Notes under the pieces: model-generated | Databases searched by the model: none | The model's input: only the letters and a program-made list of their open reading frames with translations | Told to the model about the DNA's origin: nothing | Source of the DNA: Nitrosospira sp. NpAV | GTDB taxonomy: Bacteria > Pseudomonadota > Gammaproteobacteria > Burkholderiales > Nitrosomonadaceae | Length of the DNA stretch: 64,000 bases | NCBI RefSeq assembly: GCF_000832065.1 | Contig: NZ_JXQM01000010.1 | Coordinates: forward strand, 62,001 to 126,000 | Direction: 5' to 3' | Shown here: one piece after another, positions 2,741 through 64,000 of the stretch | How positions within the stretch are numbered: position 1 is the first letter of the stretch | Layout: each line of letters begins with the position of its first letter | Made by a program: the position numbers and the translations under genes

Positions 2741-3641
2741 ACAATTTTTTAATTGGGGTGGCGAACATTTTCCAGAACATTGCCTGATAGGGTCCTCGGC
2801 CGTGGTTTTCCCGAAATCTTGGTGCCGGCTTATCTGTTGTACATAACTTTTTCTAGAAAAACATTAACGGAAGTAGAATGTATTAAACAGCACGAAAAGA
2901 ACCACCGATAGCTGTTAAATCTTACAGGGGGAGAGAAGAAGCATCCCCTATTGCAATATCCGCCGTACACAACTCATCTCACCTTACGATGTCTTCATGA
3001 AGGGATCCGGCTTCTCTTATGCGTCCTTCTTCAGAGTTCAACCCGGCCCGAGATGCTTTCATTGATATCCACTGCGATATTGGAAAAAAAGCAAAATTTC
3101 TCTTGACATTCCAAAGTAATCCACATTCGTTACAAAAATTACACAATAGCACCGGTCAAACCCGCATGAATCTTAGTTATCCTATAAGTATTTGATTAAT
3201 TATAAGAAAATATGGAGTTCAAAAAATGGTCAACTAAGAAAATATTGTTACAGAAAGATGACTTAACCACCGTGTTCATAGGTTTATCAACAAACTTATC
3301 CACAGCTATTGTGAACAATAAAATAGTGCGAGATTAAAGCCTGGATAGTTCATGGCAGCATTCCAAGCCTGCCCTGGGCATTGCGACGACTGGGAGATCT
3401 CCGACTAGCGGAACTAACACCATTCACTGGTAGACTAATATTACTGTTAAGGCAAACTAATCGGTAGAAACTCTCATTTCCGCAGTTTCACAGTAAGCAT
3501 TGATAGGCTGCTAAGTTCGGTATCGCACAGAATTTTTTTACGGTTGGATTATCTTTGGCAGAATATCTTTGCGAAACTCCATACACACGGGAGGAGTAGG
3601 ATTCTTGGGTAAGTTTTCTTTGTTTAAAAAGGAGGAAAAAA
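2741..3641. other. 900-base AT-rich intergenic region
   Basis: No convincing gene was found in any frame. It should hold the promoter of the leftward sensor kinase and of the small rightward gene at 3642. It contains the 27-base shared element (2908-2934). Two DnaA-box-like 9-mers (TTATCAACA 3284-3292 and a perfect TTATCCACA 3296-3304) are also present but are not supported by any replication gene. A TTGACA hexamer lies at 3103-3108 without a good -10 partner. Confidence 0.5.
2908..2934. promoter_or_regulatory. 27-base element shared with the hybrid kinase operon
   Basis: This 27-mer matches 58993-59019 at 24 of 27 positions. It contains the near-palindrome CTGTTA-aatc-TTACAG (one mismatch) followed by a run of five G. 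It sits 168 bases upstream of the sensor kinase ATG; the second copy sits about 228 bases upstream of the hybrid kinase ATG. A regulator binding site or a small structured RNA segment are both possible. Confidence 0.5.
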
Positions 3642-47379: not shown

Positions 47380-48405
47380 CTAATTTCTCTGAATATGCTC
47401 AAGAATTCCATTCTTGGCAAAGTGGATTTTCCGGGCCTGTTGCCAGCTGCCAAAAACCTCGTCTACGGTAAATAATTCCAGAGGGGGGAACCGATTTGCG
47501 TACTTGGCTCCCGCCTGCGCATCGCGCGGGCGATAATAGTGCTTGCCCGCAATGTCCTGGGCCTGGGGTGTATAAAGGTAATTGATATAAGCGGTAGTTA
47601 CTTCACGCGTGCCGTTCTTATCAGCCGACGCATTCACCACACTGACCGTGGGTTCGGCCACTATCGACATGGATGGCGTAACAATTTCAAATTTATCAGC
47701 TCCTTCTACGCTCGCTTGATGGATCAGAAGATGGGCTTCATTCTCCCACACCAGCAGCACGTCGCCGATACCTCGCTCGACAAAGTCGGTAGTCGCCGGC
47801 GATCTGATATTGGCGAATAATTTCCTGACAAATTCAAGTGCGGCTGCTTCGTCGCCGCCCGGTTGCCTGAGCGCATATCCCCAGGCCGCCAAATAATTCC
47901 AGCGGCCACTGTCCGAAATCTTTGGATTAGGCGTGACCACTTCTATGCCAGGTCGCGAAAGATCATCCCAGTCGCGCAATTTCTTGGGATTGCCCTTGCG
48001 CACCACAAATACTATGGTTGAAGTGTAGGGTGAGGCATGCGATGAGACATCGTGCAGGTTCTGTGATGAGGTTTGATTCCAGGCAGGCGCAATAAACCGG
48101 TTTTTTTCGCGCAGCTTATCCACATCATAAGACAGGGTAAGCGTTGTGATATTGAGACCATCAAGTACAGCACGTACCGGTTTTCCTGATTTGCTCTGGG
48201 CGGATCTGACATTAATGTCTACGCCCGTACGTGCTTTCCAGTGGGTGGCGAAGGCATCATTCAAATCCGCATACAATTCGCGGGCAGGATCGCGAACGGA
48301 GCCAGGAGAAAACGTTTGCAATGCGGCATACGCCGCGCCCAGGCTAACCAGGGATATCAATACGATAACCGCGATGTGGGATTTGTGGGATTTAATGAAA
48401 GACAT
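47380..48405 (-). CDS. sbp: Sulfate/thiosulfate-binding periplasmic protein
   Basis: A 341-residue ABC-type solute-binding protein of the Sbp/CysP family. Signal peptide at the N terminus, then INVRSAQSKSGKPVRAV, TLSYDVDKL, FVVRKGNPKKLRDWDDL and PNPKISDSGRWNYLAAWGYA, all family hallmarks for sulfate or thiosulfate. ATG 48405 follows GGAGGAAATC. The permease and ATPase genes (cysT/W/A) are absent here, so it must use components encoded elsewhere. A sulfur link with the CysB/encapsulin module 11 kb away is possible but not shown. Confidence 0.9.
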   Translation of the reverse strand: MSFIKSHKSHIAVIVLISLVSLGAAYAALQTFSPGSVRDPARELYADLNDAFATHWKARTGVDINVRSAQSKSGKPVRAVLDGLNITTLTLSYDVDKLREKNRFIAPAWNQTSSQNLHDVSSHASPYTSTIVFVVRKGNPKKLRDWDDLSRPGIEVVTPNPKISDSGRWNYLAAWGYALRQPGGDEAAALEFVRKLFANIRSPATTDFVERGIGDVLLVWENEAHLLIHQASVEGADKFEIVTPSMSIVAEPTVSVVNASADKNGTREVTTAYINYLYTPQAQDIAGKHYYRPRDAQAGAKYANRFPPLELFTVDEVFGSWQQARKIHFAKNGILEHIQRN

Positions 48406-48544
48406 TTTGATTTCCTCCAATGCTGACAATCAGGAAGGAAATCTAGCACTCATTTTCCCGGCATCAAACCAAGAAAATGTGGATAGCTTATCATGGCCGG
48501 GAAAATCTTCTCTGGGACGTCGATGCCAGTCATGCGGGACACAC

Positions 48545-48663: not shown

Positions 48664-50862
48664 TTATTTCTTCGACCCGGACAGCAGGCACGCGAATTCT
48701 TCCGCGGCCAGGGGTTTGCTAAAGTAGTAGCCTTGCATCTCGTCGCAACCCTGCTGCCTTAGAAAGGCCAACTGCGCCGGCGTTTCCACTCCTTCGGCAA
48801 TGACTTTCAGCCTCAGGCTTTGCGCCATGCTGATGATGGTGCTGGCAATCACCGCGTCGTCTGGATCTGTCATCATATTACGCACGAACGACTGGTCGAT
48901 CTTGAGTTTGTCGATCGGGAATTTCTTGAGATAGCTCAGGCTGGAATAGCCAGTACCAAAATCATCCATTGATAGTTTCAGCCCAAATGTCTTAAGTTGT
49001 TGCAGCAGCGTAATCGCCGCTCCAGCATCTTGCATGACAACACTCTCAGTAATCTCCAGTTCGCAGGCGGATGGAGCCAGGCCACTTTCATTAACGATGA
49101 CCATGATCATTTTGCCGAAATTTTTTTGACGGAACTGTACCGCCGACAAATTGGCCGCCATGGTAATTTCCGGCAACCCCATCTTGCGCCATTCCCGGTT
49201 CTGGCGGTATGCCTCACGAAGCACCCATTCGCCAATCAAGACGATCAGGCCGTTCTCTTCCGCGATGGGAATGAATTGCGCCGGCGAGACCATCCCCAAC
49301 ACGGGCTGATGCCAGCGCAGCAGTGCCTCGGCGCCAATGATACGACCGCTCTGCAAATCCACCTGCGGCTGATAATGAAGTGAAAGCTCCTTGCGCTCCA
49401 GCGCGTGGCTCAACTTGGTCCTGAGTGATATGCGTTCCAGTGTACGGCGATTCATTTCCTCGGTAAAAAACTGATAATTGTTGCGACCGTTTCCCTTGGC
49501 CTGATACATCGCATTGTCGGCATGTTTGATCAGGGTATCGCTGTCGCGCCCATCCTCGGGAAACACGCTGATACCGATGCTGGTGGTTACCTGGATTTCG
49601 CTACCGTCTATCAAATAGGAGCTGGCAATAGCTGTCAGCAGTTTGACCGCAATCATGGCAATAGCGTCGGTCGTTTCTGGTTCCCGCAGCATGATGATGA
49701 ACTCGTCACCGCCCGGCCGGCTCACTGTGTCGCTGGCGCGCACCGCTCCCTTGATGCGATCGGCGACTTCCCGCAACAGCTTGTCGCCGACTGGGTGGCC
49801 TAGTGAATCGTTAATGGTTTTAAAATGATCAAGATCAAGAAATATCACCGCCAACTTGCCGTGTTTACGTTTGGCATGGGCAATCGCTTGCGTTAGACGG
49901 TCCTGTAGCAGGAGACGATTAGGCAAACCGGTGAGAAAGTCGTGTTGTGCCATAAAGGCTACTCGCTCCTCCACCGCCTTGCGCTCGCTGATATCGGAAA
50001 ACACCGCGATATAATGGCTGATCTCGCCACATGTGCTCCTCATCGTGCTAATGCTCAACCATTCGGTATAATTCTCGCCGTTTTTGCGCTTATCCACCAT
50101 CTCACCCTGCCAATGGCCGATCTCTTTGATATTGCGCCATATCTCGCTGTAGCATGCCTCATCCATAAAACGGGGCATCGACGCGCGTGTGCCGGTCACC
50201 TCTTCCGCAGCGTAACCGGTAATGGCGGTGAAAGCCGGATTGACGTACAGGATATTTCTATCAGCACCCGTGACCGTAATACCTTCAGTGACGCTGTCGA
50301 AGATGCGTGCGAATAATGCAAGTTTCGCGGTGCGCTCGATAACTCTCTGCTCCAGCTCATTATTTAGTTTTTTTAACTCCTCCGTTTGATGCTGCACAAC
50401 GCGATTGAGGTAGAACAGGTCCACAAATACCTTGATCTTGGCTTTCAAGATTTCGGGCATGATTGGCGAGAGAATCCAATCCGCCGCGCCGACCGCGTAG
50501 CCTTTAAAGCGATCTTCGTCAGTCACCGCCTCGGCGGTGATGAAGATGATAGGGGTGTGCGCCGAACGCGGCCGGCTATGGATGATCTGGGCCGTCTCAT
50601 AACCATCCATCGTCGGCATGTAAACATCCAGCAGGATCAGAGCAAAATCCAGCTTGAGTAATTGACGCAACGCCTCTCGCCCCGAGGTGGCCGTCACCAC
50701 CTCCAACGCCATACCCGAAACGACCGAAGCCAGTGAAGTCAGCTTGGCCGGATTGTCGTCCACGATCAGTACGCAAGCGAGATTGCCCGCCGGTATCTCG
50801 ATATGGTATGGAATGCCACCATTGTGCAGCGCCGGTATTTCGATTTTGGGCAACTCCATCAT
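48664..50862 (-). CDS. REC-PAS-GGDEF-EAL c-di-GMP response regulator
   Basis: A 732-residue cytoplasmic protein. Receiver domain at about residues 29-150 with phosphoacceptor D79 (LILLDVYMP), coiled link, PAS (about 185-305), GGDEF motif at 384-388 with an intact I-site RASD five residues before, and EAL starting at E512 (AEALLRW), with DDFGTGYSSL and KIDQSFVRNM. Both catalytic motifs look active. It is the last gene of the operon headed by the giant hybrid kinase and overlaps cheB as ATGA, so the kinase probably controls its activity by phosphotransfer. Confidence 0.93.
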   Translation of the reverse strand: MMELPKIEIPALHNGGIPYHIEIPAGNLACVLIVDDNPAKLTSLASVVSGMALEVVTATSGREALRQLLKLDFALILLDVYMPTMDGYETAQIIHSRPRSAHTPIIFITAEAVTDEDRFKGYAVGAADWILSPIMPEILKAKIKVFVDLFYLNRVVQHQTEELKKLNNELEQRVIERTAKLALFARIFDSVTEGITVTGADRNILYVNPAFTAITGYAAEEVTGTRASMPRFMDEACYSEIWRNIKEIGHWQGEMVDKRKNGENYTEWLSISTMRSTCGEISHYIAVFSDISERKAVEERVAFMAQHDFLTGLPNRLLLQDRLTQAIAHAKRKHGKLAVIFLDLDHFKTINDSLGHPVGDKLLREVADRIKGAVRASDTVSRPGGDEFIIMLREPETTDAIAMIAVKLLTAIASSYLIDGSEIQVTTSIGISVFPEDGRDSDTLIKHADNAMYQAKGNGRNNYQFFTEEMNRRTLERISLRTKLSHALERKELSLHYQPQVDLQSGRIIGAEALLRWHQPVLGMVSPAQFIPIAEENGLIVLIGEWVLREAYRQNREWRKMGLPEITMAANLSAVQFRQKNFGKMIMVIVNESGLAPSACELEITESVVMQDAGAAITLLQQLKTFGLKLSMDDFGTGYSSLSYLKKFPIDKLKIDQSFVRNMMTDPDDAVIASTIISMAQSLRLKVIAEGVETPAQLAFLRQQGCDEMQGYYFSKPLAAEEFACLLSGSKK

Positions 50863-51434
50863 CCCGCCTCCTGCTCTCGATCCAGTTTGACCAGATATGG
50901 CCCGATTTCTTCCAGTTTGAGTTCGATTGCATGTCGCGTTGCTTCGATGGCGGCCGCTGGCATCTCTTGAGCGAATGCCGTCTGCCGTGATTCGATCAAC
51001 GCCACGCCGCCGCCGTGTTCTATTTCCGCCAAGCCCAGTGCACCGTCCGTGCCGGTGCCGGTAAGCACCACGCCGATGACACGAGGCCCGAAGTGCTCTG
51101 CCGCGGTTTTGAACAGCAAGTCTATTGATGGCTGCGCATGGTTCACCGCTGCTTCCGTAGAAAGTGCAAAATGATCTTCCTCAACCATGAGGTGGTAGCC
51201 GCCAGGCGCCAGGTAAATCTTTCCCGGTATAATGGCTTCCTTGTCCTCCACTTCCCGCACCAGGCGGGCGCATTCTTTCTGCAGCAGGAATTGCAACGTA
51301 TCGTCGGCATCAGAACTGCGATGCTGCACGATTGCCACCGGCAGGCGGAATGTGCCAGGCAGCGCAGACAATACACCCCGGAGGGAATTGAGTCCGCCAA
51401 GCGATGCGCCGATCACGACGAGCCCGTATTTCAT
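50859..51434 (-). CDS. Stand-alone CheB-type methylesterase
   Basis: A 191-residue CheB catalytic domain without the usual receiver domain. Nucleophile S11 in VIGASLGGLNSL, a His in IVQHRSS and an Asp in LTGTGTDGALGL form the triad. CheB removes methyl esters (and deamidates) on glutamates of chemoreceptors. With no receiver domain it is not directly gated by phosphorylation. It overlaps cheR upstream and the GGDEF-EAL gene downstream by 4 bases each. No chemoreceptor gene is nearby. Confidence 0.92.
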   Translation of the reverse strand: MKYGLVVIGASLGGLNSLRGVLSALPGTFRLPVAIVQHRSSDADDTLQFLLQKECARLVREVEDKEAIIPGKIYLAPGGYHLMVEEDHFALSTEAAVNHAQPSIDLLFKTAAEHFGPRVIGVVLTGTGTDGALGLAEIEHGGGVALIESRQTAFAQEMPAAAIEATRHAIELKLEEIGPYLVKLDREQEAG

Positions 51435-52243
51435 CGTATTTTCCGAAATAGTTTTACTGCCCGGTCTACCACCTCGTAGCAGTTCTCATAAGGGGTAAGT
51501 TGCAGCGATTCGCCATGTCCGAGGCCGAGCACTCCGCCCACCGGCAGGCTGTCGTAGATCAACCGGTGCACCCGGTCTTGCAACTTGCGGTTGAAATAAA
51601 TCATTACATTGCGGCACAGCACCATATGGAATTCGTTGAAAGAGCTGTCCGAGACCAGATTATGCTCCGCCCAGACAATATTCTTACCCAGAAAGGCACG
51701 CAAAATTACGTCGTCATGTCTTGCCGTATAGTAATCGGAGAAGACCGACTTGCCACCGGCTTTCTGATAGTTATTGGTGTAATCCTTCATCTTTTTGATG
51801 GCAAAAATTCTCCCCTTGCCTTGTTCCAGTAAGCGTTGATTAATGTCCGTAGCGTAGAGTCTGGCCTTGTCCAACAACTCCTCCTCATGCAGCATAATAG
51901 CCATGGAGTAAACCTCCTCGCCGGTGGCGCACCCGGCATGCCAGACCCGAAGGAGAGGAAGTTCCCGCCATGCCGGCACCACTTTGTCGCGCAACGCCTT
52001 ATAAAAGGCCGGGTCCCGGAACATGGCGGTGACATCTACCGACACCACATCGAGAAAGCGTGCCATGGTTTCCGGGTCGTGCAGGACGCGATCCTGATAA
52101 GCGGAAATGGTATGTACTCCTTGCTCCCGCTGCATGGCTAGATGTACACGCCGTTTCAACGAGGCCGGGGCGTAGTCACGAAAATCGTAGCCGTAGCGCT
52201 GAACCATGGCTTCGAGAAGTAACGGCAGTTCTATGGTTTCCAT
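51431..52243 (-). CDS. CheR-type methyltransferase
   Basis: A 270-residue protein-glutamate methyltransferase using S-adenosylmethionine. RVWHAGCATGEEVYSMAI is the SAM-binding motif. YATDINQRLLEQGKGRIF and FHMVLCRNVMIYFNRKLQ are further CheR hallmarks; the N-terminal helical domain is present. Its target is normally a chemoreceptor; here it is in one operon with a soluble HAMP-repeat kinase. It is coupled to cheB by an ATGA overlap and follows the 52382 gene by 138 bases. Confidence 0.92.
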   Translation of the reverse strand: METIELPLLLEAMVQRYGYDFRDYAPASLKRRVHLAMQREQGVHTISAYQDRVLHDPETMARFLDVVSVDVTAMFRDPAFYKALRDKVVPAWRELPLLRVWHAGCATGEEVYSMAIMLHEEELLDKARLYATDINQRLLEQGKGRIFAIKKMKDYTNNYQKAGGKSVFSDYYTARHDDVILRAFLGKNIVWAEHNLVSDSSFNEFHMVLCRNVMIYFNRKLQDRVHRLIYDSLPVGGVLGLGHGESLQLTPYENCYEVVDRAVKLFRKIR

Positions 52244-52381
52244 GGCCCCGTATTATTAGTTTCTTTTGGCAATTGTCATCATTCTGCTCAGGTGCGAAAA
52301 TGAACGCCTCGATGGTTTTTCCTGATGGGCTGGTCACGCTCGGCATCCGTGATCTCGAATCTGCCGACCTGCTTCATGGCA

Positions 52382-52642
52382 TCAATCCCACAGCGAGGCG
52401 GGAAGGCGCTCCAGGCTCGCAATATAGCGCTCCTCATCGAAGCCCTGTTCCGAACCGAGCACCTCGAACATTTCGCGCGACAGGGCACACCCCACCAAGG
52501 TGAACGCTTCTTCAGAGGTATAGCCTGATGCGATCAAACGTTCGCTGGTTCGCCTGACTTGCGGCGGCGAGTTCTCTTGTAACTGGGTAGTAACAATCTC
52601 GTGAATCGCCTCACGCACGGATGCAGAATAGTGATCTGTCAT
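52382..52642 (-). CDS. Small helical protein of unknown function
   Basis: An 86-residue all-helical, acidic protein starting at ATG 52642 with AAGGAAGCC upstream. No membrane segment. A central RLIASGYTSEEAFTLVGCAL stretch resembles small helical domains found next to signalling genes, but I cannot name a family. It lies 42 bases after the hybrid kinase and 138 before cheR, so it belongs to the operon. Confidence 0.7.
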   Translation of the reverse strand: MTDHYSASVREAIHEIVTTQLQENSPPQVRRTSERLIASGYTSEEAFTLVGCALSREMFEVLGSEQGFDEERYIASLERLPASLWD

Positions 52643-52684
52643 AGTGGCTTCCTTATTTAAACCCGCTATACGGAAGGGATCAAT

Positions 52685-55600
52685 TTACCTATATAGCCAC
52701 ACCCGCATTAGCGACAGAAGTTGATCCACATCCACGGGTTTGGAGACATAGTCGGAAGCACCGGCTTCTATGCATTTTTCACGGTCACCTTTCATCGCTT
52801 TGGCAGTGAGTGCAATCATGGGCAAGGATTCGAATTTTTTTATCTTGCGGATCTGGCGCATGGTCTCAAAGCCGTCCATTTCCGGCATCATGATGTCCAT
52901 CAGCACGATATTTACCTCGGGATTCTTTTTCAGTAATTCGATGGCGCTCTTACCGTTCTCGGCAGAGAATACCTCCAGCTTGTTGTGCTCCAGCGCGGCG
53001 GTAAGGGCGAAAATGTTGCGCACGTCGTCATCCACCACCAGGACTTTTTTACCAGTCAGACTATCGCTGCCAACGTAAAGCTTCTCCAGCATCTTTCGCC
53101 TGTTCTCCGGCAACTTGGCAACCACGCGATGCAGGAACAGTGAGGTCTCATCCAGCAGGCGTTCGGGCGACCGCACTTCCTTCACGATACCCTTAAGTGC
53201 CAGGGATTTCAGATGTTCCTGGTCCTTTTTTTGTGGCTCTTCCGCGCCGTACACAATCACCGGCACTTCCCGGGTCAACGCATTGCCCTGGATCATCTCG
53301 ATCAGTTCGCCCACCCCCATGTCAGGCAAGTTGAGGTCAAGCACTATGCAATCGTAGCGCTTCTTCTTCAGCGCCAACAGCGCCTCCTTGCCGGTCGCCA
53401 CCGCCTTGATGCGCACGTCATTGTTCCCAATGAGTGCAATGATGTTCTTGCGTTGCGCTTCGTTGCCGTCGGCGATGAGCAGATCCCCTATGCCAAGTTC
53501 GGCGAACTTGCGCAAATCGGTCAGCGCCTTCTGCACCGCTTCCAGCGTGGCTGGTTTTACCAGATACTCGTAAGCACCGTAACGAAGGCCACGCGAACGG
53601 TTGTCATCTACGGAAATAATCTCGACCGGAATATGGCGTGTGCCTGGATTGCGTTTAAGCTTTTCAAGCAAGACCCAGCCGTCCATGTCGGTCAGGTGCA
53701 GATCCAAAGTAATGGCGGTAGGCTTGAATTTTTCAGCGAGTTCGTATCCCTCACCGCCCAATGTAGCGACTACTCCCTTGAAGCCCTTCTCGCGCGCTGC
53801 CTGGAGCAGGATATCGGCGAATCTCGCATCATCCTCGATGATGAGCAGAGTGCGTTCGCCGGGTTGGATACTTGCCCGGTCATCCGCGACTTGGGAAGAC
53901 GGCGGCTTCTTGGCCGCTATCTCTTCAGAAGGGCGGGCGGGTGCCCTCTTCCCAGCTGCCGGTATTGACGATCGAGACGCGGATGGAGCCGCTGATTCCG
54001 CCTCATCCGCTCCGCTGAGCGGGATTGGCGCCTCGATAGCAAAGTTCCTGGCGCTGCCACTGGACATGCCATCGCCACTCTGCCCTGGCTCAGGTCCGTG
54101 CAGAGGCAGATACATTACGAAGGTGCTGCCCTTGCCATGCTCGCTGAAAGCCAGCTGTAGTTCGCCACCCAGCAGCCGTGCAATCTCGCGTGAGATGGAT
54201 AGCCCCAGTCCAGTGCCCCCATACTTGCGTGCTGTACCTGCATCGGCCTGTTGAAATGCCTCGAAGATGATCTTCTGTTTGGCTGCCAGCACGCCGATGC
54301 CGGTGTCAGTGATATAGAAGCCGATCACCTGTTCGGCCTGATCGAGTGTGGGATGACCAACGCTCCAGCCGGAATCCACCGGAGCGACACGCATTATGAC
54401 GGTGCCTTTCTCAGTGAACTTGAACGAGTTGGACAGGAGATTCTTCAGCACCTGCTGCAAGCGATTCTCGTCGGTATAGATGCTCCCAGGCAGGTCCGGC
54501 GCCAGCTCGATGGCAAAGTCAAGATTGCGGTTGTTGGCGACATGGCGGAAAGTGCGCTCGACCTGATCGCGCACGCGATTGAACAGTACGTCCGCCATGT
54601 CCAATGTAACCGTGCCGGACTCGATCTTGGACAGATCCAGAATCTCGTTGATCAGCGTCAGCAGATCTTTTCCCGAACCCTGGATAGTCTTCGCATATTC
54701 GACTTGTTTTTCGTTGAGATTGTGCTGCGGATTGTCGGCCAGCTGCTGTGCCAGAATAAGCAGGCTATTCAATGGCGTGCGTAATTCGTGCGACATGTTG
54801 GAAAGGAATTCCGACTTATACTTGGAAGTGAGGGTAAGCTGCTCGGCCTTTTCCTCCATCAACATTTTGGCGGTCTCGACCTCACGGTTCTTGCGTTCGA
54901 CCTCAAGCTTCTGCTCTTCCAGCAGATTCGCCTTTTCCTCCAATTCCTCGTTAGTTTGGCGCAGCTCTTCCTGCTGGCTGCCCAGTTCACTCGCCAAGGA
55001 TTGTGATTGCTTGAGCAATTCCTCGGTACGCATATTGGCTTCGATGGTGTTGAGCACGATGCCGATGGATTCGCTCAACTGGTCGAGGAAATTCTGATGA
55101 ATGGCGCTGAATTGGGTGAATGAGGCAATCTCGATCACTGCCTTCACCTTGTTCTCAAAAATGACTGGCAGCACAACAATACTCTGTGGCTTGGCCTCGC
55201 CGAGTCCCGAAGTGATCTCGATGTAATCAGGCGGTACGTTGGTCAGCAGGATACGCTGCTTCTCGAAGGCGCACTGGCCGACGATGCCCTCGCCAAGCTT
55301 CCATTCATTGGAAAGATTTTTACGTTCCTTAAAGGCGTAGGTGGAAAGAAGCTTGAGTCGGGGGTTTTCCGGCACCGTTTCATCCAGCACATAGAACACG
55401 CCATGCTGGCCGTTGATGAGGGGAGCAAGCTCAGAGAGCACCATTTTCGATACAGCGGTGAGGTCGCGTTGACCCTGCAGCAGCCGCGTGAACTTGGCGA
55501 GGTTGGTCTTGAGCCAGTCCTGCTCCGAATTCTGCCGCGTGGTCTCGCGCAGATTCCGGATCATCTCGTTGACATTATCCTTGAGATCCGCCACCTCGCC

Positions 55601-58600
55601 TTTTGCTTCGACGGTAATGTTGCGCGTGAGGTCGCCTTTGGTTACCGCCGTGGCGACGTCGGCGATGGCGCGCACCTGATTGGTGAGGTTGGCCGCCAGT
55701 CCATTCACGTTGTCGGTGAGATCTTTCCAGGTACCCGCGGCGCCAGGCACGTTGGCCTGGCCGCCCAGCCTCCCCTCGACTCCCACCTCGCGTGCCACCG
55801 AGGTGACTTGGTCGGCGAATAGTGCCAGCGTATCGGTCATGTTATTGATGGTATCGGCCAGCTCAGCGATCTCGCCCTTGGCTTCCACCGTCAACTTCTT
55901 CTTCAGGTCGCCATTAGCCACCGCCGTCACCACCTTGGCGATGCCGCGCACCTGGCTGGTGAGGTTGGAGGCCATGAAGTTGACATTGTCGGTGAGGTCT
56001 TTCCAGGTACCGGAAACGCCACGTACCGTAGCTTGGCCACCCAGCTTACCATCGGTTCCGACCTCTCGCGCCACCCGGGTAACTTCCGCCGCAAAGCTGT
56101 TGAGCTGATCCACCATCGTATTCACGGTATTTTTCAGGTCGAGAATCTCACCCTTCACATCCACCGTGATTTTCTTGCCCAGATCACCATTGGCAACAGC
56201 AGTGGTCACCTGCGCGATATTGCGCACCTGCGAGGTAAGGTTGGAAGCCATCATGTTGACCGATTCGGTAAGGTCCTTCCAAGTGCCGGCCACCCCCGTA
56301 ACATAGGCCTGGCCGCCGAGCTTGCCATCCATGCCGACTTCGCGCGCCACCCTGGTAACTTCCGAAGCGAACGAACGAAGCTGGTCCACCATGGTATTGA
56401 TGGTTTCTTTCAGTTGCATGAACTCGCCACGCACGTCCACCGTGATCTTTTTGCTAAGATCGCCGTTGGCTACTGCGATGGTCACGTCGGCGATGTTGCG
56501 TACCTGGCCGGTGAGGTTGGAAGCCATGCCGTTTACCGATTCGGTGAGATCCTTCCAGGTGCCGGAAACGCCGCGTACCGTAGCCTGTCCGCCCAGTTTG
56601 CCCTCGGTGCCCACCTCCCGCGCCACGCGTGTCACCTCCGATGCGAAGCTGGAAAGCTGATCCACCATGATATTGATGGTTTCCTTGAGTTGCAGGATTT
56701 CGCCCTTGGCCTCAGCGGTAATCTTCTTGCCGAGGTCCCCATTGGCCACCGCCGTTGTCACATCGGCGATATTGCGCACCTGTGTGGTCAGGTTGGCCGC
56801 CATCATGTTGACCGATTCGGTCAAATCCTTCCAGGTGCCCGCCACCCCCGTGACATAGGCTTGGCCGCCAAGCTTGCCATCCATGCCAACCTCGCGCGCC
56901 ACGCGCGTAACTTCATCAGCAAAGGTTGAAAGCTGGTCCACCATGATGTTGATAGTCGCCTTGAGCTCCAGGATTTCACCCCTCGCATCCACTGTGATCT
57001 TCTTGCTTAGGTCGCCCTGAGCCACCGCCGTCGTCACGTCGGCAATATTGCGCACCTGCGAGGTGAGGTTGGACGCCATGCCGTTCACGCTTTCCGTGAG
57101 ATCTCTCCAAGTGCCAGACACGCCTGCCACCTCCGCCTGCCCACCCAGCTTGCCCTCGGTGCCCACCTCACGCGCCACCCGCGTTACCTCGTCGGCAAAG
57201 GTTGAGAGCTGATCGACCATGATGTTGATGGTTTCCTTGAGTTGCAGGATTTCGCCCTTGGCCTCGGCGGTAATCTTCTTGCCGAGGTCCCCATTGGCCA
57301 CCGCCGTCGTCACCTCAGCAATATTGCGCACCTGTGTGGTCAGGTTGGCCGCCATCATGTTGACCGAGTCGGTCAAGTCCTTCCAGGTGCCGGAAACGCC
57401 CTCGACTTGCCCCTGACCACCCAGTATCCCTTCCGTACCCACCTCGCGCGCCACTCGGGTGACTTCCGAAGCGAAGCTGGAAAGCTGGTCCACCATGGTG
57501 TTGATGGTGGCTTTCAGTTCCAGGATTTCACCTCTGGCATCCACCGTGATCTTCTTGCTGAGATCGCCCTTGGCCACCGCCGTCGTTACGTCGGCGATAT
57601 TGCGCACCTGCCAGGTCAGGTTGGAGGCCATCATGTTTACCGATTCGGTAAGGTCCTTCCAGGTGCCACCCACCCCGGTCACCTCAGCCTGGCCGCCCAG
57701 CTTGCCTTCCGAGCCGACTTCGCGCGCTACTCGCGTCACCTCGGAAGCGAAGCCGGAGAGTTGATCCACCATGATGTTGATGGTTTCCTTGAGTTGCAGG
57801 ATTTCGCCCTTGGCCGCAGCGGTAATTGTCTTGGTCAGGTCGCCGCTGGCCACCGCGGTGGTGACGTAGGCGATGTTCCTTACCTGCGTCGTCAGGTTGG
57901 AGGCCATGCCGTTGACGCTCTCGGTCAGATCTTTCCAGGTGCCGGAAACGCCCGCCACCTCGGCTTGGCCGCCGAGCTTGCCTTCAGTCCCAACCTCGCG
58001 CGCCACGCGTGTCACCTCGGCAGCGAAGGTGGAAAGCTGGTCGACCATGGTATTGACAGTATCCTTGAGTTCCAGAATTTCACCCTTGGCCTCGACCGTA
58101 ATTTGTTTCGAGAGATCGCCCTTGGCCACGGCGGTGGTCACGTCGGCGATATTTCTCACCTGGGTGGTAAGGTTGGCGGCCATGCCGTTAACTGAATCTG
58201 TAAGGTCTTTCCAGGTCCCCGACACATCTGCGACCTCGGCCTGCCCGCCGAGGATGCCGTCGGTGCCGACTTCACGCGCCACCCGCGTTACTTCCGAAGA
58301 AAAAGTACCGAGTCGCGCCACCATGGTATTCACGATTTGTGCCGATTTGAGGAACTGGCCTTGCAACTTGAGACCATCGATCTCCATCGACACGCTTCGC
58401 GACAGATCGCCCTCGGCCACCGCACCCACGACGCGGATCATCTCATTCATGGGACTGACCAGGTCGTCAGCCAGAGCATTGCTGGATTCCACCAATCTTG
58501 CCCAGGATCCCTTCATTGTTGGCAGCACGATACGCTCGCCAACCTTGCCCTGCTTGCCGGCAAGTTGCGCCACACGCTCGAATTCGGCGGTAGTCTCCTG

Positions 58601-58765
58601 CGCCATATCAATAATATCGTTGAGGGTATCCGCAACTTTTCCGGGCAGCCCAATCAGATCGGTTGGCATGCGCACGGTAAAATCGCCTTTGCGGTATGCA
58701 TTAAGAACAGCGATGAGCTGTTTCACATCAAGATCGTCGGGTGATGTTTGCCGCAGTGAGGCCAT
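52685..58765 (-). CDS. Giant soluble hybrid histidine kinase with tandem HAMP units
   Basis: A 2026-residue protein without membrane segments. Order: degenerate HAMP-like head (1-200), nine tandem 92-residue HAMP units (201-1028), a partial tenth (1029-about 1085), GAF (about 1105-1250), a coiled coil, HisKA with H1326 ([12 protein letters not shown]), HATPase_c, a Pro/Ala/Ser linker, then three receivers (about 1632-1755, 1760-1885, 1903-2022). REC3 is typical ([19 protein letters not shown]); REC1 and REC2 carry LDLHL and LDLNL phosphorylation sites. The unit ([29 protein letters not shown]) closely resembles the repeats of fungal group III kinases such as Nik1, osmosensors. It heads the operon with CheR, CheB and a GGDEF-EAL regulator, so it probably senses a cytoplasmic or osmotic cue. 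Confidence 0.93.
55682..58165 (-). repeat. Nine in-frame tandem repeats of 276 bp
   Basis: Nine consecutive units of exactly 92 codons inside the hybrid kinase gene, with no length change between units. Each begins QVRNIA-VTTAVA and ends MA[SA]NLT. Units differ mainly at a few positions, for example NMMA versus NGMA, and AEAKGE versus VDARGE. The opposite strand stays open in several frames because of the repetition, which produces spurious long frames there. Confidence 0.92.
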
Positions 58766-58966
58766 GATTCCTCCTATGTTAATTGCTCAAGTGTCCCGGT
58801 AGCGGCTATGTGTCCACAAATATCGTTCACTATCTTTAACTGGGTTATGTTGCCATTTTTAAATGCATTTGCGATGACATGAAATACCAGTGCAGCGCGT
58901 CAGCTCTTATAGGCTCAGACTCGCCATGGCATAGGCGTAGGCCCGCTAATAAAATAGGGGCAGGGC

Positions 58967-59019
58967 ATTACATCATGTAATGACATTTACAAATAGCTGT
59001 AAAATGTTACAGGGGGTGA
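58967..59019. promoter_or_regulatory. Cluster of TTACA/TGTAA palindromes upstream of the hybrid kinase
   Basis: Three palindromes lie side by side: ATTACAT-c-ATGTAAT (58967-58981), TTTACA-aatagc-TGTAAA (58986-59003) and CTGTAA-aatg-TTACAG (58997-59012). The last is followed by five G and is part of the 27-mer shared with 2908-2934. The position, 200-255 bases before the ATG, suits an activator or repressor array. Confidence 0.6.
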
Positions 59020-59552
59020 ACCGATGGGAAGAAATCCCTCTTTTCATAAAGTAAGCCGAGCAACATCAAATCGGAAATTCGCTGTAAATTCCCTTCGGCC
59101 TGATCGGTAATAGATGGGGTTTAACCGGTGAGAGCGGGATCCTGTGGCGTTATCGCAGGGTACCGGAGTTCGAGATCAGGTTTCCCCCACCTGCGATTGC
59201 CTTGGAGCCGCTGCTTCGAAAGTGACATCATCCTGCTCTGCATACGGTATCTTTCTTTCGGAAATAGAGATGACCCCTGCTATCACGCCAAGACAAGCGG
59301 TACAAGCGGGTTAAGGATCAGGTTTCGATTTCGAATTCGTGTGGCTTTAGTTATCCCCCTGGAGTCCCTCTCCCGCAGAGGTTCGCAGCGCATTGTGCAC
59401 TTAATCCTTCATTTCCTGCTCACGGTGGTTAATTTCCACGTGCTCCTTATCCATAAAAGAGATAAGCAAATGAAATGTTATTGGTTCCCTGTAAAAGGCG
59501 GAGCTGATAACTTTAACACTGTGGTTATCTTCTCCTTTTTGTTTCAATTCGT
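59020..59552. other. Intergenic region upstream of an orphan terminator
   Basis: I see no supported gene. Frames across this stretch lack ribosome binding sites and protein-like composition. A transcript reading rightwards into the terminator at 59553 would be non-coding; a start for it could not be placed by eye. Confidence 0.35.
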
Positions 59553-59583
59553 GGCGCCAGCCGTTGGCTGGCGCCCTTTTTTT
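59553..59583 (+). terminator. Strong intrinsic terminator without an upstream gene
   Basis: GGCGCCAGCC (59553-59562) pairs perfectly with GGCTGGCGCC (59566-59575) around a 3-base loop, followed by C and seven T. It is an ideal Rho-independent terminator on the plus strand. The nearest gene upstream on that strand is over 10 kb away, so it points to a small RNA or protects the encapsulin promoter from readthrough. Confidence 0.8.
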
Positions 59584-59704
59584 CTCCAGAGGCCATACAA
59601 ACCTGAAAACCTGATCCTTTCCACCGATGGATACATCGAATCTTTTTTTCATCCAGAAAAACGATATCAATATCTGCATGGAGAAATTCAAAAATAAAAA
59701 ATCC

Positions 59705-59750
59705 ATATAATAATTTAATATAAGCTAATTATAATTTGTTATATATAATA
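59705..59750 (+). promoter_or_regulatory. AT-rich promoter region of the encapsulin operon
   Basis: Almost pure A/T with three TATAAT hexamers (59706-59711, 59730-59735, 59744-59749) and no good -35 element at the right distance from any of them. Such an AT-rich activator-dependent layout is typical of CysB-type LysR control, and a cysB gene closes this cluster. The link is inference. Confidence 0.5.
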
Positions 59751-59812
59751 GGCCGGCAGCATCCCCTCAATTCACTTCAATATTGCTCAGATACTTAACC
59801 AAGGAGAATGAA

Positions 59813-60730
59813 ATGGCGGATATCCACCAAGGACACACAGCACTGGGAGACGTGGCGGCACGCACGCTTGCCAATGCCACTAAAACCGTTCCTCAGCTGC
59901 GGCTTATCACCCCGCGCTGGCTTGTTCACCTGCTGCACTGGGTGCCGGTCGAGGCTGGTATTTACCGTGTAAACAAGGTAAAGGACCCCGATAAGATTGC
60001 AGTGGATTGTTCCAACAAGGATGAACGTGAACTGCCCAATACTTTCGTGGATTACGAGGAATGGGGGCGGGAATATGTGTTGAGCGCGGTCAATACCGTG
60101 GTGGACGTACATACTCGCGTTTCCGATCTCTATAGCAGCCCGCACAACCAGATTCACGAGCAGGTTCGCCTGACCATTGAAATAGTGAAGGAACGCCAGG
60201 AAAGGGAGCTGTTGAATAACAAGGAATATGGTTTGCTCAATAATGTAAATGACTTCATGAGAATAAAAACGCGGTCGGGTGCGCCCACTCCGGATGACCT
60301 GGACGAACTGATTGCACGCGTCTGGAAAGAGCCCGGTTTCTTTCTGGCACACCCCCAGGCAATCGCCGCATTTGGACGCGAATGTACGCGCCGTGGCGTA
60401 CCGCCTCCAACCATAACCTTGTTTGGTTCACAATTTCTGACTTGGCGTGGACTCCCGCTCATTCCCTGCGACAAGATTGATGTGGTCAAGGGCAAGACTT
60501 CCATCCTGTTGCTGCGCACTGGAGAAAGCCGTCAGGGCGTTGTCGGACTGTACCAGCCCGGTTTGGCTGGCGAACAAGGCATGGGGCTCTCGGTGCGTTT
60601 CATGGGCATCAATCATCAAGCCATTGCCTCCTACCTGGTATCTCTGTATTGCTCACTGGCGGTATTGACCGAAGATGCGGTTGGCATACTTGAGAATGTC
60701 GATGTAGGCAAATATCATGAGTACAAGTAA
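59813..60730 (+). CDS. Family 2A encapsulin shell protein
   Basis: A 305-residue HK97-fold shell protein. ATG 59813 follows AAGGAGAATGAA; the N terminus MADIHQGHTALGDVAARTLANATKT and the segment LVHLLHWVPVEAGIYRVNKV are hallmarks of the SrpI-like family 2A. There is no cyclic-nucleotide-binding insertion, which separates 2A from 2B. Established work on SrpI (Synechococcus) shows such shells self-assemble and enclose a cysteine desulfurase, with expression raised on sulfur starvation. The gene overlaps the desulfurase start by 14 bases, so shell and cargo are translated together. Confidence 0.94.
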   Translation: MADIHQGHTALGDVAARTLANATKTVPQLRLITPRWLVHLLHWVPVEAGIYRVNKVKDPDKIAVDCSNKDERELPNTFVDYEEWGREYVLSAVNTVVDVHTRVSDLYSSPHNQIHEQVRLTIEIVKERQERELLNNKEYGLLNNVNDFMRIKTRSGAPTPDDLDELIARVWKEPGFFLAHPQAIAAFGRECTRRGVPPPTITLFGSQFLTWRGLPLIPCDKIDVVKGKTSILLLRTGESRQGVVGLYQPGLAGEQGMGLSVRFMGINHQAIASYLVSLYCSLAVLTEDAVGILENVDVGKYHEYK

Positions 60731-62597
60731 TCGATCAGGCCTGGGTGAGACTTTGGGCGGTACGTCCGGCAGCCTTCCCGATATCGGGGAATTAACGCGC
60801 ATGGTGAATGAAATGTTTGCCACTCCGCCAGGCATGGAACGCGCTTCCGCAAGCCCTTCCGATATTTCTTTCGGAACGGGTGCCAGATTTCCCGCCGGGT
60901 ATTCTCCCAAGTTCCCCTACGAGTTTCCTTATTCAGCCGCCGCCGCGCCACATCCGCGATCCATGGCACCCTCCGAGGCTCCTGCGTCGGCTCCTTATGG
61001 AGTTCCAGGTTCGGCCGCAACCACGCCAGACCCGAAATCCGTGCTACCCTCGACGGCGCCTTTGGGGTCTTACTATACTGTTCCCTACTCGGCAGGGGCG
61101 GCTCAGGCTCTGAAGATTCCGGCACTTGGCGCAGATCTCCCCTACGCCGATACATTTACCGCATTTTCGCTGCCACCTCCCCCGGAACTGGAGGCCCCAT
61201 CCGCTTTCCTGCCATCCGGCAAACCGGGCATAAACGCCGCTTCATCAGCTGGTACGGGCGCTTTTCCCATCGGCCAGGCTGGCGGCCCGGCATTTTACTT
61301 CCTTGATGAGGCCGTGCCATTTGGCAGTGGCGCCCGTGAGAGGCAAATACCGTCGATTGCATCGACACATCCTGCATTTGATGCCAATGCCGTGCGGCGC
61401 GACTTTCCCATCCTAAAGGAACGGGTGCACGGCCGCCCGCTAATCTGGCTGGATAATGCCGCCACCACGCAGAAACCCCAATCTGTCATCGACCGTCTCG
61501 CCTATTTCTACCAGCACGAAAACTCCAATATCCACCGCGCAGCGCACGAACTTGCGGCGCGCGCCACCGATGCTTATGAGGAGTCACGCGGGAAGGTACG
61601 CCGCTTTCTCAATGCCCCGTCCGCCGATGAAATCATTTTCCTCAGGGGCACGACCGAAGCAATCAATCTTGTTGCGCAGAGCTGGGGCCGGCAAAATGTC
61701 AACGAAGGGGACGAAGTCGTCATCACCTGGCTGGAACACCATGCCAATATCGTGCCCTGGCAGCAGCTATGCAACGAAAAGGGTGCGAAACTGCGCGTAG
61801 CGCCGGTGGACGACGATGGCCAGATATTGCTCGACGAATATCAGAAGTTGCTTGGTTCGCGTACCAAGCTCGTATCGTTCTCGCACGTCTCCAACGCGCT
61901 AGGCACCATCACGCCGGCGCGCCAGATGATTGAAATGGCGCATCGCGTGGGTGCTCGCGTACTGGTGGATGGTGCGCAGTCGGTCTCGCATATGCGGGTG
62001 GATGTGCAGCAACTCGATTGCGACTGGTTCGTTTTCTCGGGTCACAAGGTATTCGGTCCCACTGGCATCGGTGCCCTGTTTGGCAAGGCTGAACTGCTCA
62101 ATACCTCTCCTCCCTGGCAAGGCGGCGGCAATATGATCCAGAATGTCACCTTCGAGAAAACGGCATATAATCCCGCGCCGGCGCGTTTCGAGGCTGGCAC
62201 GGGCAATATCGCCGACGCGGTGGGACTTGGCGCCGCGATCGACTATGTGGAACGCGTTGGTATCGACAACATAAGCCGCTACGAGCATGACCTGATGACC
62301 TATGCAACGCGGGGTCTCAATACCGTCCCTGGTTTGCGGCTTATCGGCACCGCGCCGGACAAGGCGGGAGTATTGTCGTTCGTGCTGAAGGGCTTCGCTA
62401 CTGAAGAGGTCGGCGAGGCCCTGAACCGGGAAGGTATCGCGGTGCGTGCCGGTCACCACTGCGCGCAGCCTATCCTGCGGCGTTTTGGCTATGAAACCAC
62501 GGTACGCCCGTCATTGGCGTTGTACAATACCTGTGCGGATGTCGATACACTGGTCACGGCACTACGCCGGCTGCAGGGCGGCCGCTATAATTATTGA
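60717..62597 (+). CDS. Encapsulated cysteine desulfurase with disordered cargo extension
   Basis: A 626-residue PLP enzyme. The last 400 residues form a SufS-type (type II) cysteine desulfurase: PLP lysine K444 in FSGHKVFGPTG and catalytic C582 in RAGHHCAQP, both intact. It takes sulfur from cysteine as persulfide, leaving alanine. The first 219 residues are a low-complexity Pro/Ala/Ser/Gly extension with a conserved-looking helix (LPDIGELTRMVNEMF, about residues 18-33) and repeated F/YP-type motifs. In family 2A systems this extension loads the enzyme into the shell. No serine acetyltransferase or rhodanese follows, unlike some relatives. Confidence 0.94.
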   Translation: MSTSNRSGLGETLGGTSGSLPDIGELTRMVNEMFATPPGMERASASPSDISFGTGARFPAGYSPKFPYEFPYSAAAAPHPRSMAPSEAPASAPYGVPGSAATTPDPKSVLPSTAPLGSYYTVPYSAGAAQALKIPALGADLPYADTFTAFSLPPPPELEAPSAFLPSGKPGINAASSAGTGAFPIGQAGGPAFYFLDEAVPFGSGARERQIPSIASTHPAFDANAVRRDFPILKERVHGRPLIWLDNAATTQKPQSVIDRLAYFYQHENSNIHRAAHELAARATDAYEESRGKVRRFLNAPSADEIIFLRGTTEAINLVAQSWGRQNVNEGDEVVITWLEHHANIVPWQQLCNEKGAKLRVAPVDDDGQILLDEYQKLLGSRTKLVSFSHVSNALGTITPARQMIEMAHRVGARVLVDGAQSVSHMRVDVQQLDCDWFVFSGHKVFGPTGIGALFGKAELLNTSPPWQGGGNMIQNVTFEKTAYNPAPARFEAGTGNIADAVGLGAAIDYVERVGIDNISRYEHDLMTYATRGLNTVPGLRLIGTAPDKAGVLSFVLKGFATEEVGEALNREGIAVRAGHHCAQPILRRFGYETTVRPSLALYNTCADVDTLVTALRRLQGGRYNY

Positions 62598-62626
62598 AAT
62601 AGCGGGTATTCAGTGAAGGAGATGAA

Positions 62627-62663
62627 GCCTGCCTGTGTCGGATGGTATGGGCAGGCCTCCTTT
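62627..62663 (+). terminator. Hairpin after the desulfurase gene
   Basis: GCCTGCC (62627-62633) pairs with GGCAGGC (62650-62656), followed by CTCCTTTC. It is a modest terminator 30 bases after the stop, suggesting that cysB has its own promoter. Confidence 0.55.
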
Positions 62664-62695
62664 CTCGTACATTCCGAGCATCCAGCACAAAATAA

Positions 62696-62765
62696 ATCCG
62701 GATAATCCGTAAGGATGCAAGCAATCGCGCGGGCTCGGAGAACCGTCTAATGGATTATCCGGGAT
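62696..62765. repeat. Imperfect inverted repeat containing an R2 copy
   Basis: ATCCGGATAATCC (62696-62708) is complementary, apart from one inserted base, to GGATTATCCGGGAT (62752-62765). The right half (62731-62763, minus orientation) is the R2 repeat also found at 9700 and 14883. It ends 20 bases before the cysB start codon, in the cysB leader. Confidence 0.5.
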
Positions 62766-62785
62766 AACATGAATTTATAGACCCC

Positions 62786-63730
62786 ATGAACTTTCAGCAA
62801 CTACGCATCATCCACGAAACGGTCCGGCAGAACTATAACCTCACTGAAGCGGCAAATGCCTTGTTTACGTCGCAGTCGGGTGTCAGCAAGCACATAAAAG
62901 ATCTGGAAGATGAATTAGGCATCGAATTGTTCGTGCGCAAGGGCAAACGGCTGCTCGGATTGACTGACCCCGGCAAGGAACTGGTGGAAATCGTCGAGCG
63001 CATCCTGCTGGATGCGAAAAACGTCAAACGCCTGGCGGAACAATTCAGCAATAAGGACCAGGGACGGCTGACTATCGCGACTACCCATACACAGGCGCGG
63101 TATGCATTGCCTTCCGTGGTGACGCAATTCAAGAAGGCATTTCCCAACGTTCACCTTATCCTGCATCAGTCCAGCCCCGATGAGATTGTATCGATGCTGC
63201 TCGATGGCGTCGCGGATATCGGCATCGCCACTGAAGCATTGGAGAGCGTGGTGGAGCTGGCGTCATTTCCCTATTACTCCTGGCATCATGCGGTCATTGT
63301 ACCGCCCGGTCATCCACTCGAATTGGTACATCCGCTAACGCTTGAAGCGATTGCCGAATTTCCAGTCATTACTTATCATGAAGGTTTCACCGGGCGGTCA
63401 GGAATTGACGAGACTTTCGCAAAGGCGGGAATCGTACTCGATATCGCGATGTCGGCCCTGGACGCCGATGTCATCAAAACCTACGTCGAACTCGGATTGG
63501 GGGTGGGTCTCGTGGCTTCGATGGCGTTCAACCCGACACGCGATATACGGCTCCACCTGCTCGACAGTTCGCACCTGTTCCAGAAAAATACCACGAATAT
63601 CTCTATCAGGCGCGGCCACTATCTACGCGGATACGCTTACCGCTTCATCGAGCTTTGCCTGCCATCACTAAGCGAGGCAGCAATCCGTTCCGGCGTCAAA
63701 CCGGAGGTGGATATGGAACTGGATGACTGA
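62786..63730 (+). CDS. cysB: CysB-type LysR regulator of sulfur assimilation
   Basis: A 314-residue LysR-family regulator. The N-terminal HTH reads MNFQQLRIIHETVRQNYNLTEAA, then SQSGVSKHIKDLEDELGIELFVRKGKRL, near-identical in style to CysB/Cbl. The ligand domain includes IATTHTQARYALP, which forms the sulfate/acetylserine site in CysB. It activates cysteine-biosynthesis genes when sulfur is short, with O- or N-acetylserine as inducer. It lies 188 bases after the desulfurase gene on the same strand, which suggests it controls the encapsulin operon. Confidence 0.93.
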   Translation: MNFQQLRIIHETVRQNYNLTEAANALFTSQSGVSKHIKDLEDELGIELFVRKGKRLLGLTDPGKELVEIVERILLDAKNVKRLAEQFSNKDQGRLTIATTHTQARYALPSVVTQFKKAFPNVHLILHQSSPDEIVSMLLDGVADIGIATEALESVVELASFPYYSWHHAVIVPPGHPLELVHPLTLEAIAEFPVITYHEGFTGRSGIDETFAKAGIVLDIAMSALDADVIKTYVELGLGVGLVASMAFNPTRDIRLHLLDSSHLFQKNTTNISIRRGHYLRGYAYRFIELCLPSLSEAAIRSGVKPEVDMELDD

Positions 63731-63777
63731 ATCCGGATGAGTACGGTAGTTGGTCAGTCAGTGGCTGTTCAGAAGCG

Positions 63778-64000
63778 CTACGCGGTGAATCCCCCATCGA
63801 TTGTCAGGCTCGCGCCGGTTATGAAGCCCGCTTCGGGTCCAGCAAGATATGCAACCATCGCGGCAATCTCATCGACCGTACCATAGCGTGGAACAGCCAT
63901 GACCTTCCGCAGCATCTCGGCAAAATCGCCCTTGGCAGGATTCATGTCGGTGTCGGTAGGTCCGGGCTGAACATTGTTGATGGTGATGCCCCGCAGGCCG
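63778..64000 (-). CDS. SDR-family oxidoreductase, C-terminal part
   Basis: The minus strand reads through 73 codons to TAG at 63778-63780; the N terminus is beyond the window edge. GLRGITINNVQPGPTDTDMN and FITGASLTIDGGFTA are classic ends of short-chain dehydrogenases/reductases (NAD(P)-dependent, cytoplasmic). The Rossmann and YxxxK motifs would be outside the window, so the substrate cannot be judged. Convergent with cysB, with an R1-like half element (about 63730-63752) between them. Confidence 0.9.
   Translation of the reverse strand, partial: GLRGITINNVQPGPTDTDMNPAKGDFAEMLRKVMAVPRYGTVDEIAAMVAYLAGPEAGFITGASLTIDGGFTA

Follow-up and report, generated by a model that had tools for sequence, protein, structure and literature searches.

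A family 2A encapsulin with cysteine desulfurase cargo in Nitrosospira sp. NpAV, a probable sulfur store paired with sulfate-uptake genes

The closest described relative of the locus analysed here is the SrpI/CyD system of Synechococcus elongatus PCC 7942 (structures 6x8m and 6x8t). According to the available portion of its description, SrpI is induced under sulfate starvation, the desulfurase works approximately sevenfold faster when encapsulated, knockouts of shell and cargo show no growth defect, and the cargo carries two motifs, LARLANEFFS and AASPYYFLDG (PMC8049743). A wider survey, in the part available, counts 1281 family 2A operons with a desulfurase, 813 of them in Proteobacteria, and reports that, of the accessory genes in desulfurase operons, those for serine acetyltransferase and rhodanese are the most enriched (PMC8346489), whilst the accessible text of two further papers mentions sulfur storage in passing (PMC10960027, PMC12407261). 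Within the one literature collection searched, we found no paper joining an encapsulin with Nitrosospira, CysB or 'sulfate permease'; three join one with Nitrosomonas.

Here we describe a locus of this kind in a 64,000-nucleotide stretch of the Nitrosospira sp. NpAV genome (the window). Our reading, to which we assign a probability of about 0.85, is that it encodes a family 2A encapsulin that stores sulfur taken from cysteine and is paired with sulfate-uptake genes. The features concerned, in window coordinates, are as follows.

47380 to 48429, minus strand: sulfate-binding protein gene, sbp (NF008022, 359.7 bits, cut-off 288)
48664 to 58765, minus strand: 10-kb signalling block (REC-PAS-GGDEF-EAL, CheB, CheR, hybrid kinase)
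59553 to 59575, plus strand: terminator-like hairpin and T run upstream of the shell promoter (pattern match only)
59691 to 59750, plus strand: AT-rich putative promoter region of the shell gene
59813 to 60730, plus strand: family 2A encapsulin shell protein, 305 aa (curated profile models and structure match)
60717 to 62597, plus strand: cargo cysteine desulfurase, 626 aa, with a SufS-like domain from about residue 221 (profile models)
60717 to 61373, plus strand: N-terminal extension of the cargo, residues 1-219, rich in A, P, S and G (loading role taken from the SrpI paper)
60783 to 60821, plus strand: IGELTRMVNEMFA, residues 23-35, counterpart of LARLANEFFS
61287 to 61313, plus strand: PAFYFLDEA, residues 191-199, counterpart of AASPYYFLDG
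62627 to 62656, plus strand: terminator-like hairpin of 13 pairs between cargo and regulator (folding z -3.21)
62786 to 63730, plus strand: CysB-family LysR-type regulator, 314 aa, a paralogue of canonical CysB (profile models, tree)

The shell protein scored 535.7 bits with the NCBIfam model encap_f2a (cut-off 380), covering profile positions 1-295 of 295, and 353.6 bits with the Pfam SrpI-like model (cut-off 22.8), and its top match among solved structures was SrpI (6x8m, E 7.7e-155). The original prediction of a family 2A encapsulin with desulfurase cargo, which had proposed a comparison with family 2A and 2B models, was borne out by both curated models, that of the shell and that of the cargo. 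The family 2B model was also exceeded (429.6 bits, cut-off 400), its best stretch on the shell being only profile positions 210-449 of 450, the C-terminal half, and the cyclic-nucleotide domain that is a trait of family 2B was not found in the shell with Pfam at an E value of 0.001; passing the 2A model with no such domain places the protein in family 2A. It aligns with SrpI without gaps over residues 9-305, with R193, G195, P197, F263 and Y274 standing for R192, G194, P196, F262 and Y273 of SrpI; of the six pore and contact residues published for SrpI, five are therefore identical, and the sixth differs in having K305 in place of R304. Structures named 'Major membrane protein I' (8t6r, 9ksl, 8wol and 8won) are also family 2A shells by sequence, and the window shell lies farther from them (491.1, 439.9, 439.9 and 421.8 bits, respectively) than from SrpI (517.6 bits). 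The best start for the shell gene is the ATG at 59813, with AAGGAGAATGAA just before it; the mechanically called reading frame opens at a TTG at 59783.

The shell gene could instead encode a phage capsid, resident or domesticated, that has nothing to do with a compartment, and there is a match to the major head protein family PHROG 212. That match, the best from PHROG, reached 32.2 bits against 535.7 for encap_f2a, the cargo gene overlaps the shell gene, and no phage gene was present among the neighbours scanned with Pfam, leaving the capsid explanation with next to no probability. Identity as a tailed-phage major capsid (phrog_212) was rejected on the same scores, the reverse of the better phage match that the original prediction had named as grounds for abandoning it. 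The shell-cargo pair is real and adds one more ordinary case to a family already described.

The cargo scored 891.9 bits with NF041166, the model for family 2A cargo desulfurases (cut-off 800). Its gene overlaps that of the shell by 14 bases (ATGAGTACAAGTAA), a difference from SrpI/CyD, and the catalytic residues K444 (in SGHK) and C582 (in RAGHHC) are kept; both points had been predicted exactly. The N-terminal extension measures 219-225 residues depending on the domain start chosen, in keeping with the 219 residues first proposed, and 54% of its residues (225 counted) are A, P, S or G; the disorder proposed along with that length is suggested by composition only. As in SrpI/CyD, the extension bears both conserved motifs, and an adjacent cargo of this build is a further mark of family 2A. 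Counterparts of both motifs were present in all nine Nitrosospira cargos, whilst narrow patterns made for this analysis detected each motif in 55 of all 81 complete extensions, and the FYFLD-type motif occurred twice in the extensions of L151, L164 and L171. Extensions of the Nitrosospira genomes G015, G022, G001 and G005 span 352-394 residues versus approximately 225 in the window, and a repeat motif, detected with a pattern chosen after seeing it, occurred in seven of nine Nitrosospira cargos versus none of 74 others. Within the G022 extension lies a 156-bp tandem array of 2.7 copies (L079:6470-6897), and no similar array was found in the window. Separately, IscS-like desulfurase matches with internal stops were observed in G003, G007, G008 and G019.

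By analogy with the published relatives, sixty shell copies would assemble into a small icosahedral shell and the desulfurase would be loaded through its N-terminal extension. Cysteine would then enter through the five-fold pore, and its sulfur, freed as an enzyme-bound persulfide, would accumulate inside as a sulfur reserve of the cell. The shell could alternatively channel sulfur rather than store it, shielding the desulfurase whilst an acceptor takes over the persulfide for the synthesis of Fe-S clusters or thio-cofactors, as the SufS-like cargo domain might imply and as might the rhodaneses listed, in the available part of the survey, among the most enriched accessories of other desulfurase operons (PMC8346489). 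Against channelling, a Pfam scan of neighbouring genes (part of the 64-kb reading frames) showed no rhodanese, in agreement with the original prediction, and a search for the SufE family, as distinct from SufU, gave no match in the strain's own genome, versus matches in five of 14 control genomes. We consider channelling improbable; since no SufE match was found in the genome, storage fits better than hand-over to SufE. Counted against storage are the 14 of 23 genus genomes without a full-length shell and the S. elongatus knockouts, which grew without defect in the text available (PMC8049743).

To place the locus amongst its relatives, we compared the best 80 of at least 581 confirmed loci, and the counts therefore describe nearest relatives only; three of these (L100, L101 and L111) repeat the genus genomes G017, G002 and G001. 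The nearest named shells belong to Nitrosovibrio sp. Nv17 (95% identity) and a Nitrosospira MAG (93%), with Nitrosospira sp. Nsp14 at 85% and Nitrosomonas at 84-86%; those of Nv17, the MAG and Nsp14 are identical to the shells of G017, G002 and G001, genomes of the same genus as the window, which places the window in this Nitrosospira/Nitrosovibrio group. Within 6 kb of the shell in these best 80 loci we detected serine acetyltransferase in 68, sbp in 50, EAL in 46, cysTW in 43, cysA in 41, DUF2325 in 25, cysK in 21 and a CysB-type gene in 13 (nine at 67% identity or above), all of which are lower bounds as many loci stop at contig ends. Where possible, counts were taken from this 6-kb search, which recovers the shells of L100 and L139 that are missed, along with other genes, by the gene-order listing of longest non-overlapping reading frames. 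Representative acetyltransferases score above the cut-off of the EpsC-type model and below that of the older cysE model; the CysA chosen to represent its cluster is accepted by the sulfate subfamily model and fails the CysA equivalog.

Nitrosomonas loci (e.g. N. oligotropha Nm45, L102) share with the window the same type of cargo and nearby sulfate genes. Amongst the best 80 relatives, cysTWA adjoins the shell-cargo pair in all 11 Nitrosomonas loci, after it in nine and before it in two, and the acetyltransferase is present in seven of the 11. They differ from the window in that the pair stands with cysT, cysW and cysA, often also with sbp, DUF2325 and EAL genes, which at the window locus are absent or set apart from it. 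Methylophilaceae and Methylococcales loci contain the same shell-cargo pair, there usually with serine acetyltransferase upstream and, in several Methylococcales, cysK beside the acetyltransferase; they differ in having few nearby CysB-type genes, 41-45% identical (L136, L159, L171 and L178).

In this lineage the shell-cargo pair would belong with sulfate-uptake genes, lying in relatives inside or beside genes for sulfate permease and serine acetyltransferase. The window would hold a reduced cluster: its permease genes lie elsewhere in the genome, the locus lacks the acetyltransferase, and signalling genes separate sbp from the shell. Because the fuller form is widespread among relatives, we infer that the window arrangement is a trimmed form of a sulfate-uptake cluster and that change ran in this direction. 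Elsewhere in the same genome, contig C1 carries a porin-sbp-DUF2325-EAL-cysTWA cluster that lacks a shell (Pfam confirmed porin, sbp, EAL, CysA and one permease; the rest were named by eye), and C202 carries an acetyltransferase copy. The window sbp is 84% identical to that of G021, which is divergent from and adjacent to the shell gene, and the gap between sbp and shell is 518 bases in G021 versus 11383 in the window strain; the signalling block between the two is thus read as a probable insertion. It includes a hybrid kinase of 2026 residues (52685-58765, minus strand) with 11 HAMP_2 stretches, GAF, HisKA and HATPase domains and three receiver domains.

Within the genus, a full-length shell gene was present in nine of 23 genomes (G000, G001, G002, G005, G012, G015, G017, G021 and G022), and across the order 29 of 300 sampled genomes had a shell above cut-off, with 30 having any match. 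Loci were compared in 22 of the 23 genomes (G016 was left out), and 20 of the 22 contained the same ABC exporter gene within the stretch. The sbp gene is divergent from and adjacent to the shell in five of the nine shell-bearing loci, the contig of G002 being too short to tell. Remnants of shell, cargo or sbp genes were recovered from four genomes. In G006 and G010, cargo pieces lie beside the regulator; in G018, an sbp piece runs straight into the cargo C-terminus, close to a contig start; and in G008, a shell fragment lies beside sbp (L095:8439-8676) on a different contig from the regulator locus, a layout that suggests rearrangement before or during shell loss. All genus shells form one clade (support 100/100), and horizontal arrival within the genus is consequently not favoured, a result that leaves the time of entry of the clade unfixed.

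Serine acetyltransferase, present at three of the nine shell-bearing loci, lies between cargo and regulator in G015, G022 and G001, the G001 copy carrying one in-frame stop. A translated search found none in positions 55001-64000 of the window or in the 16-kb stretch L073, so that its predicted absence from the locus, unlike SrpI/CyD, held. At genome level, 21 of 23 genus genomes gave a strong acetyltransferase match; none was found in G002 (80% complete), and G007 has a weak, broken match with stops (G007:C1:2978326-2979206). The idea that the window represents a distinctive arrangement lacking this gene fared less well: because three of nine genus loci keep the acetyltransferase and all 11 Nitrosomonas loci have sulfate-permease genes, its absence is best read as a probable lineage loss, not a new design.

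The gene downstream of the cargo, another difference from SrpI/CyD, had been called a cysB that follows directly. A CysB-family gene is indeed there, separated from the cargo stop by 188 nt and a hairpin; its identity as CysB did not stand. The regulator missed the CysB equivalog NF009326 (365.2, cut-off 436) and the Cbl equivalog NF009324 (433.2, cut-off 491) and passed the broad CysB-family model NF009327 (444.2, cut-off 402). The copy that does pass as CysB (475.5, cut-off 436) is divergent from cysI elsewhere in the same genome, near cysH-, cysD- and cysN-like reading frames (named by eye), and the genome also has a third CysB-type paralogue. Three sequences were folded, and the two besides the window, G021 and G017, also have a hairpin at this place between cargo and regulator (z -2.07 and -5.60, respectively). 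Among 35 CysB-type sequences placed in a tree, those from Nitrosospira group with three from Nitrosomonas shell loci (L106, L114 and L115) in one clade (98/94), with the copies of Sideroxydans, G037 and G039 outside it at weaker support.

Control of the compartment by CysB had been proposed from a promoter that is strongly AT-rich and has no good -35. Both descriptive points agree with our analysis: no 60-mer of the window, scanned in steps of 10, is richer in A+T than 59691-59750 (91.7%), and reading by eye gave TATAAT at 59744-59749 and TG at 59738-59739 with no good -35. A promoter scan near the shell gave as its sole match a different 9-of-12 site at 59687, and the 34-nt promoter pattern is exact in G000, G012 and G021. 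The upstream hairpin has 10 pairs, nine of them G-C, and a loop of three, and is one of six such sites in the region versus 5.1 expected. An element around TAATCTAACATAATATTCTTT is strongly conserved between cysI and cysB in the genus (16 sequences; L181, L185-L199). From these 16 cysI promoters we built a CysB-box matrix after both promoters had been seen; the sites share ancestry, and matches of this kind arise readily in AT-rich DNA. With a lighter pseudocount its best place in the 64-kb window was the shell promoter, at 8.3 bits versus approximately 54 at true cysI; with a heavier one the shell promoter came second, 16.2 versus 16.4 at 3235. Of 300 shuffles, those scoring at least as high as observed (lighter/heavier pseudocount) numbered 7/6 in G000, 1/1 in G012, 11/12 in G021, 6/6 in G002, 0/1 in G001, 25/21 in G017, 98/81 in G015, 88/74 in G022 and 265/259 in G005, giving likeness to the cysI element in five of nine strains. 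A single shared box was found neither with a palindrome pattern nor with MAFFT over the nine upstream regions. This likeness is suggestive, at most, of control of the shell promoter by a CysB-type protein, with the paralogue unspecified, and control by such a regulator is a weak possibility.

The downstream gene might nevertheless be a dedicated regulator of the shell-cargo pair. It follows the cargo in all nine shell-bearing genus genomes (six directly, three after the acetyltransferase), regulators of the same clade accompany Nitrosomonas shells and a more distant one (68% identity) a Sideroxydans shell, and the promoter likeness in five of nine strains points the same way. However, an orthologue (at least 85% identity, whole or split across contigs) persists in every genus genome but G016 (22 of 23), and 13 of those 22 lack a full-length shell; a dedicated cysB linkage as originally stated was rejected since the gene stays where the shell has gone. 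The intervening hairpin also counts against it, as does the promoter element, not found in G015, G022 and G005 and weak in G017. In G037 and G039, from other families of the order and with no shell match, orthologues 73% and 70% identical come after an ABC ATPase gene, itself preceded by permease and sulfate-binding reading frames (a single permease frame is listed in G037), and stand last in an apparent sulfate-transport operon, as read by eye. We therefore consider a dedicated role unlikely.

Beyond the preferred reading of a sulfur store paired with sulfate-uptake genes, a more specific and decidedly tentative proposal, doubtful at present, is that in ammonia oxidisers the compartment takes an active part in sulfate uptake, serving as a store that fills on sulfate import and is switched by a second, sulfate-permease-linked CysB-type regulator, and that it has been repeatedly lost in Nitrosospira. 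If this were true, close Nitrosospira relatives would be natural knockouts for the worth of the compartment. The benefit of family 2A encapsulins to their hosts is a question on which the Synechococcus knockouts, in the available part of that paper, gave no growth phenotype (PMC8049743), and within the Nitrosospira group closely related strains range from those with a fuller or a trimmed locus to those with remnants or nothing at all. In Nitrosomonas, the company of sulfate import and often serine acetylation genes points to a condition to test. Overall, the most useful additions made here are the sulfate-uptake context of the shell-cargo pair in Nitrosomonas and its patchy, decaying state in Nitrosospira.
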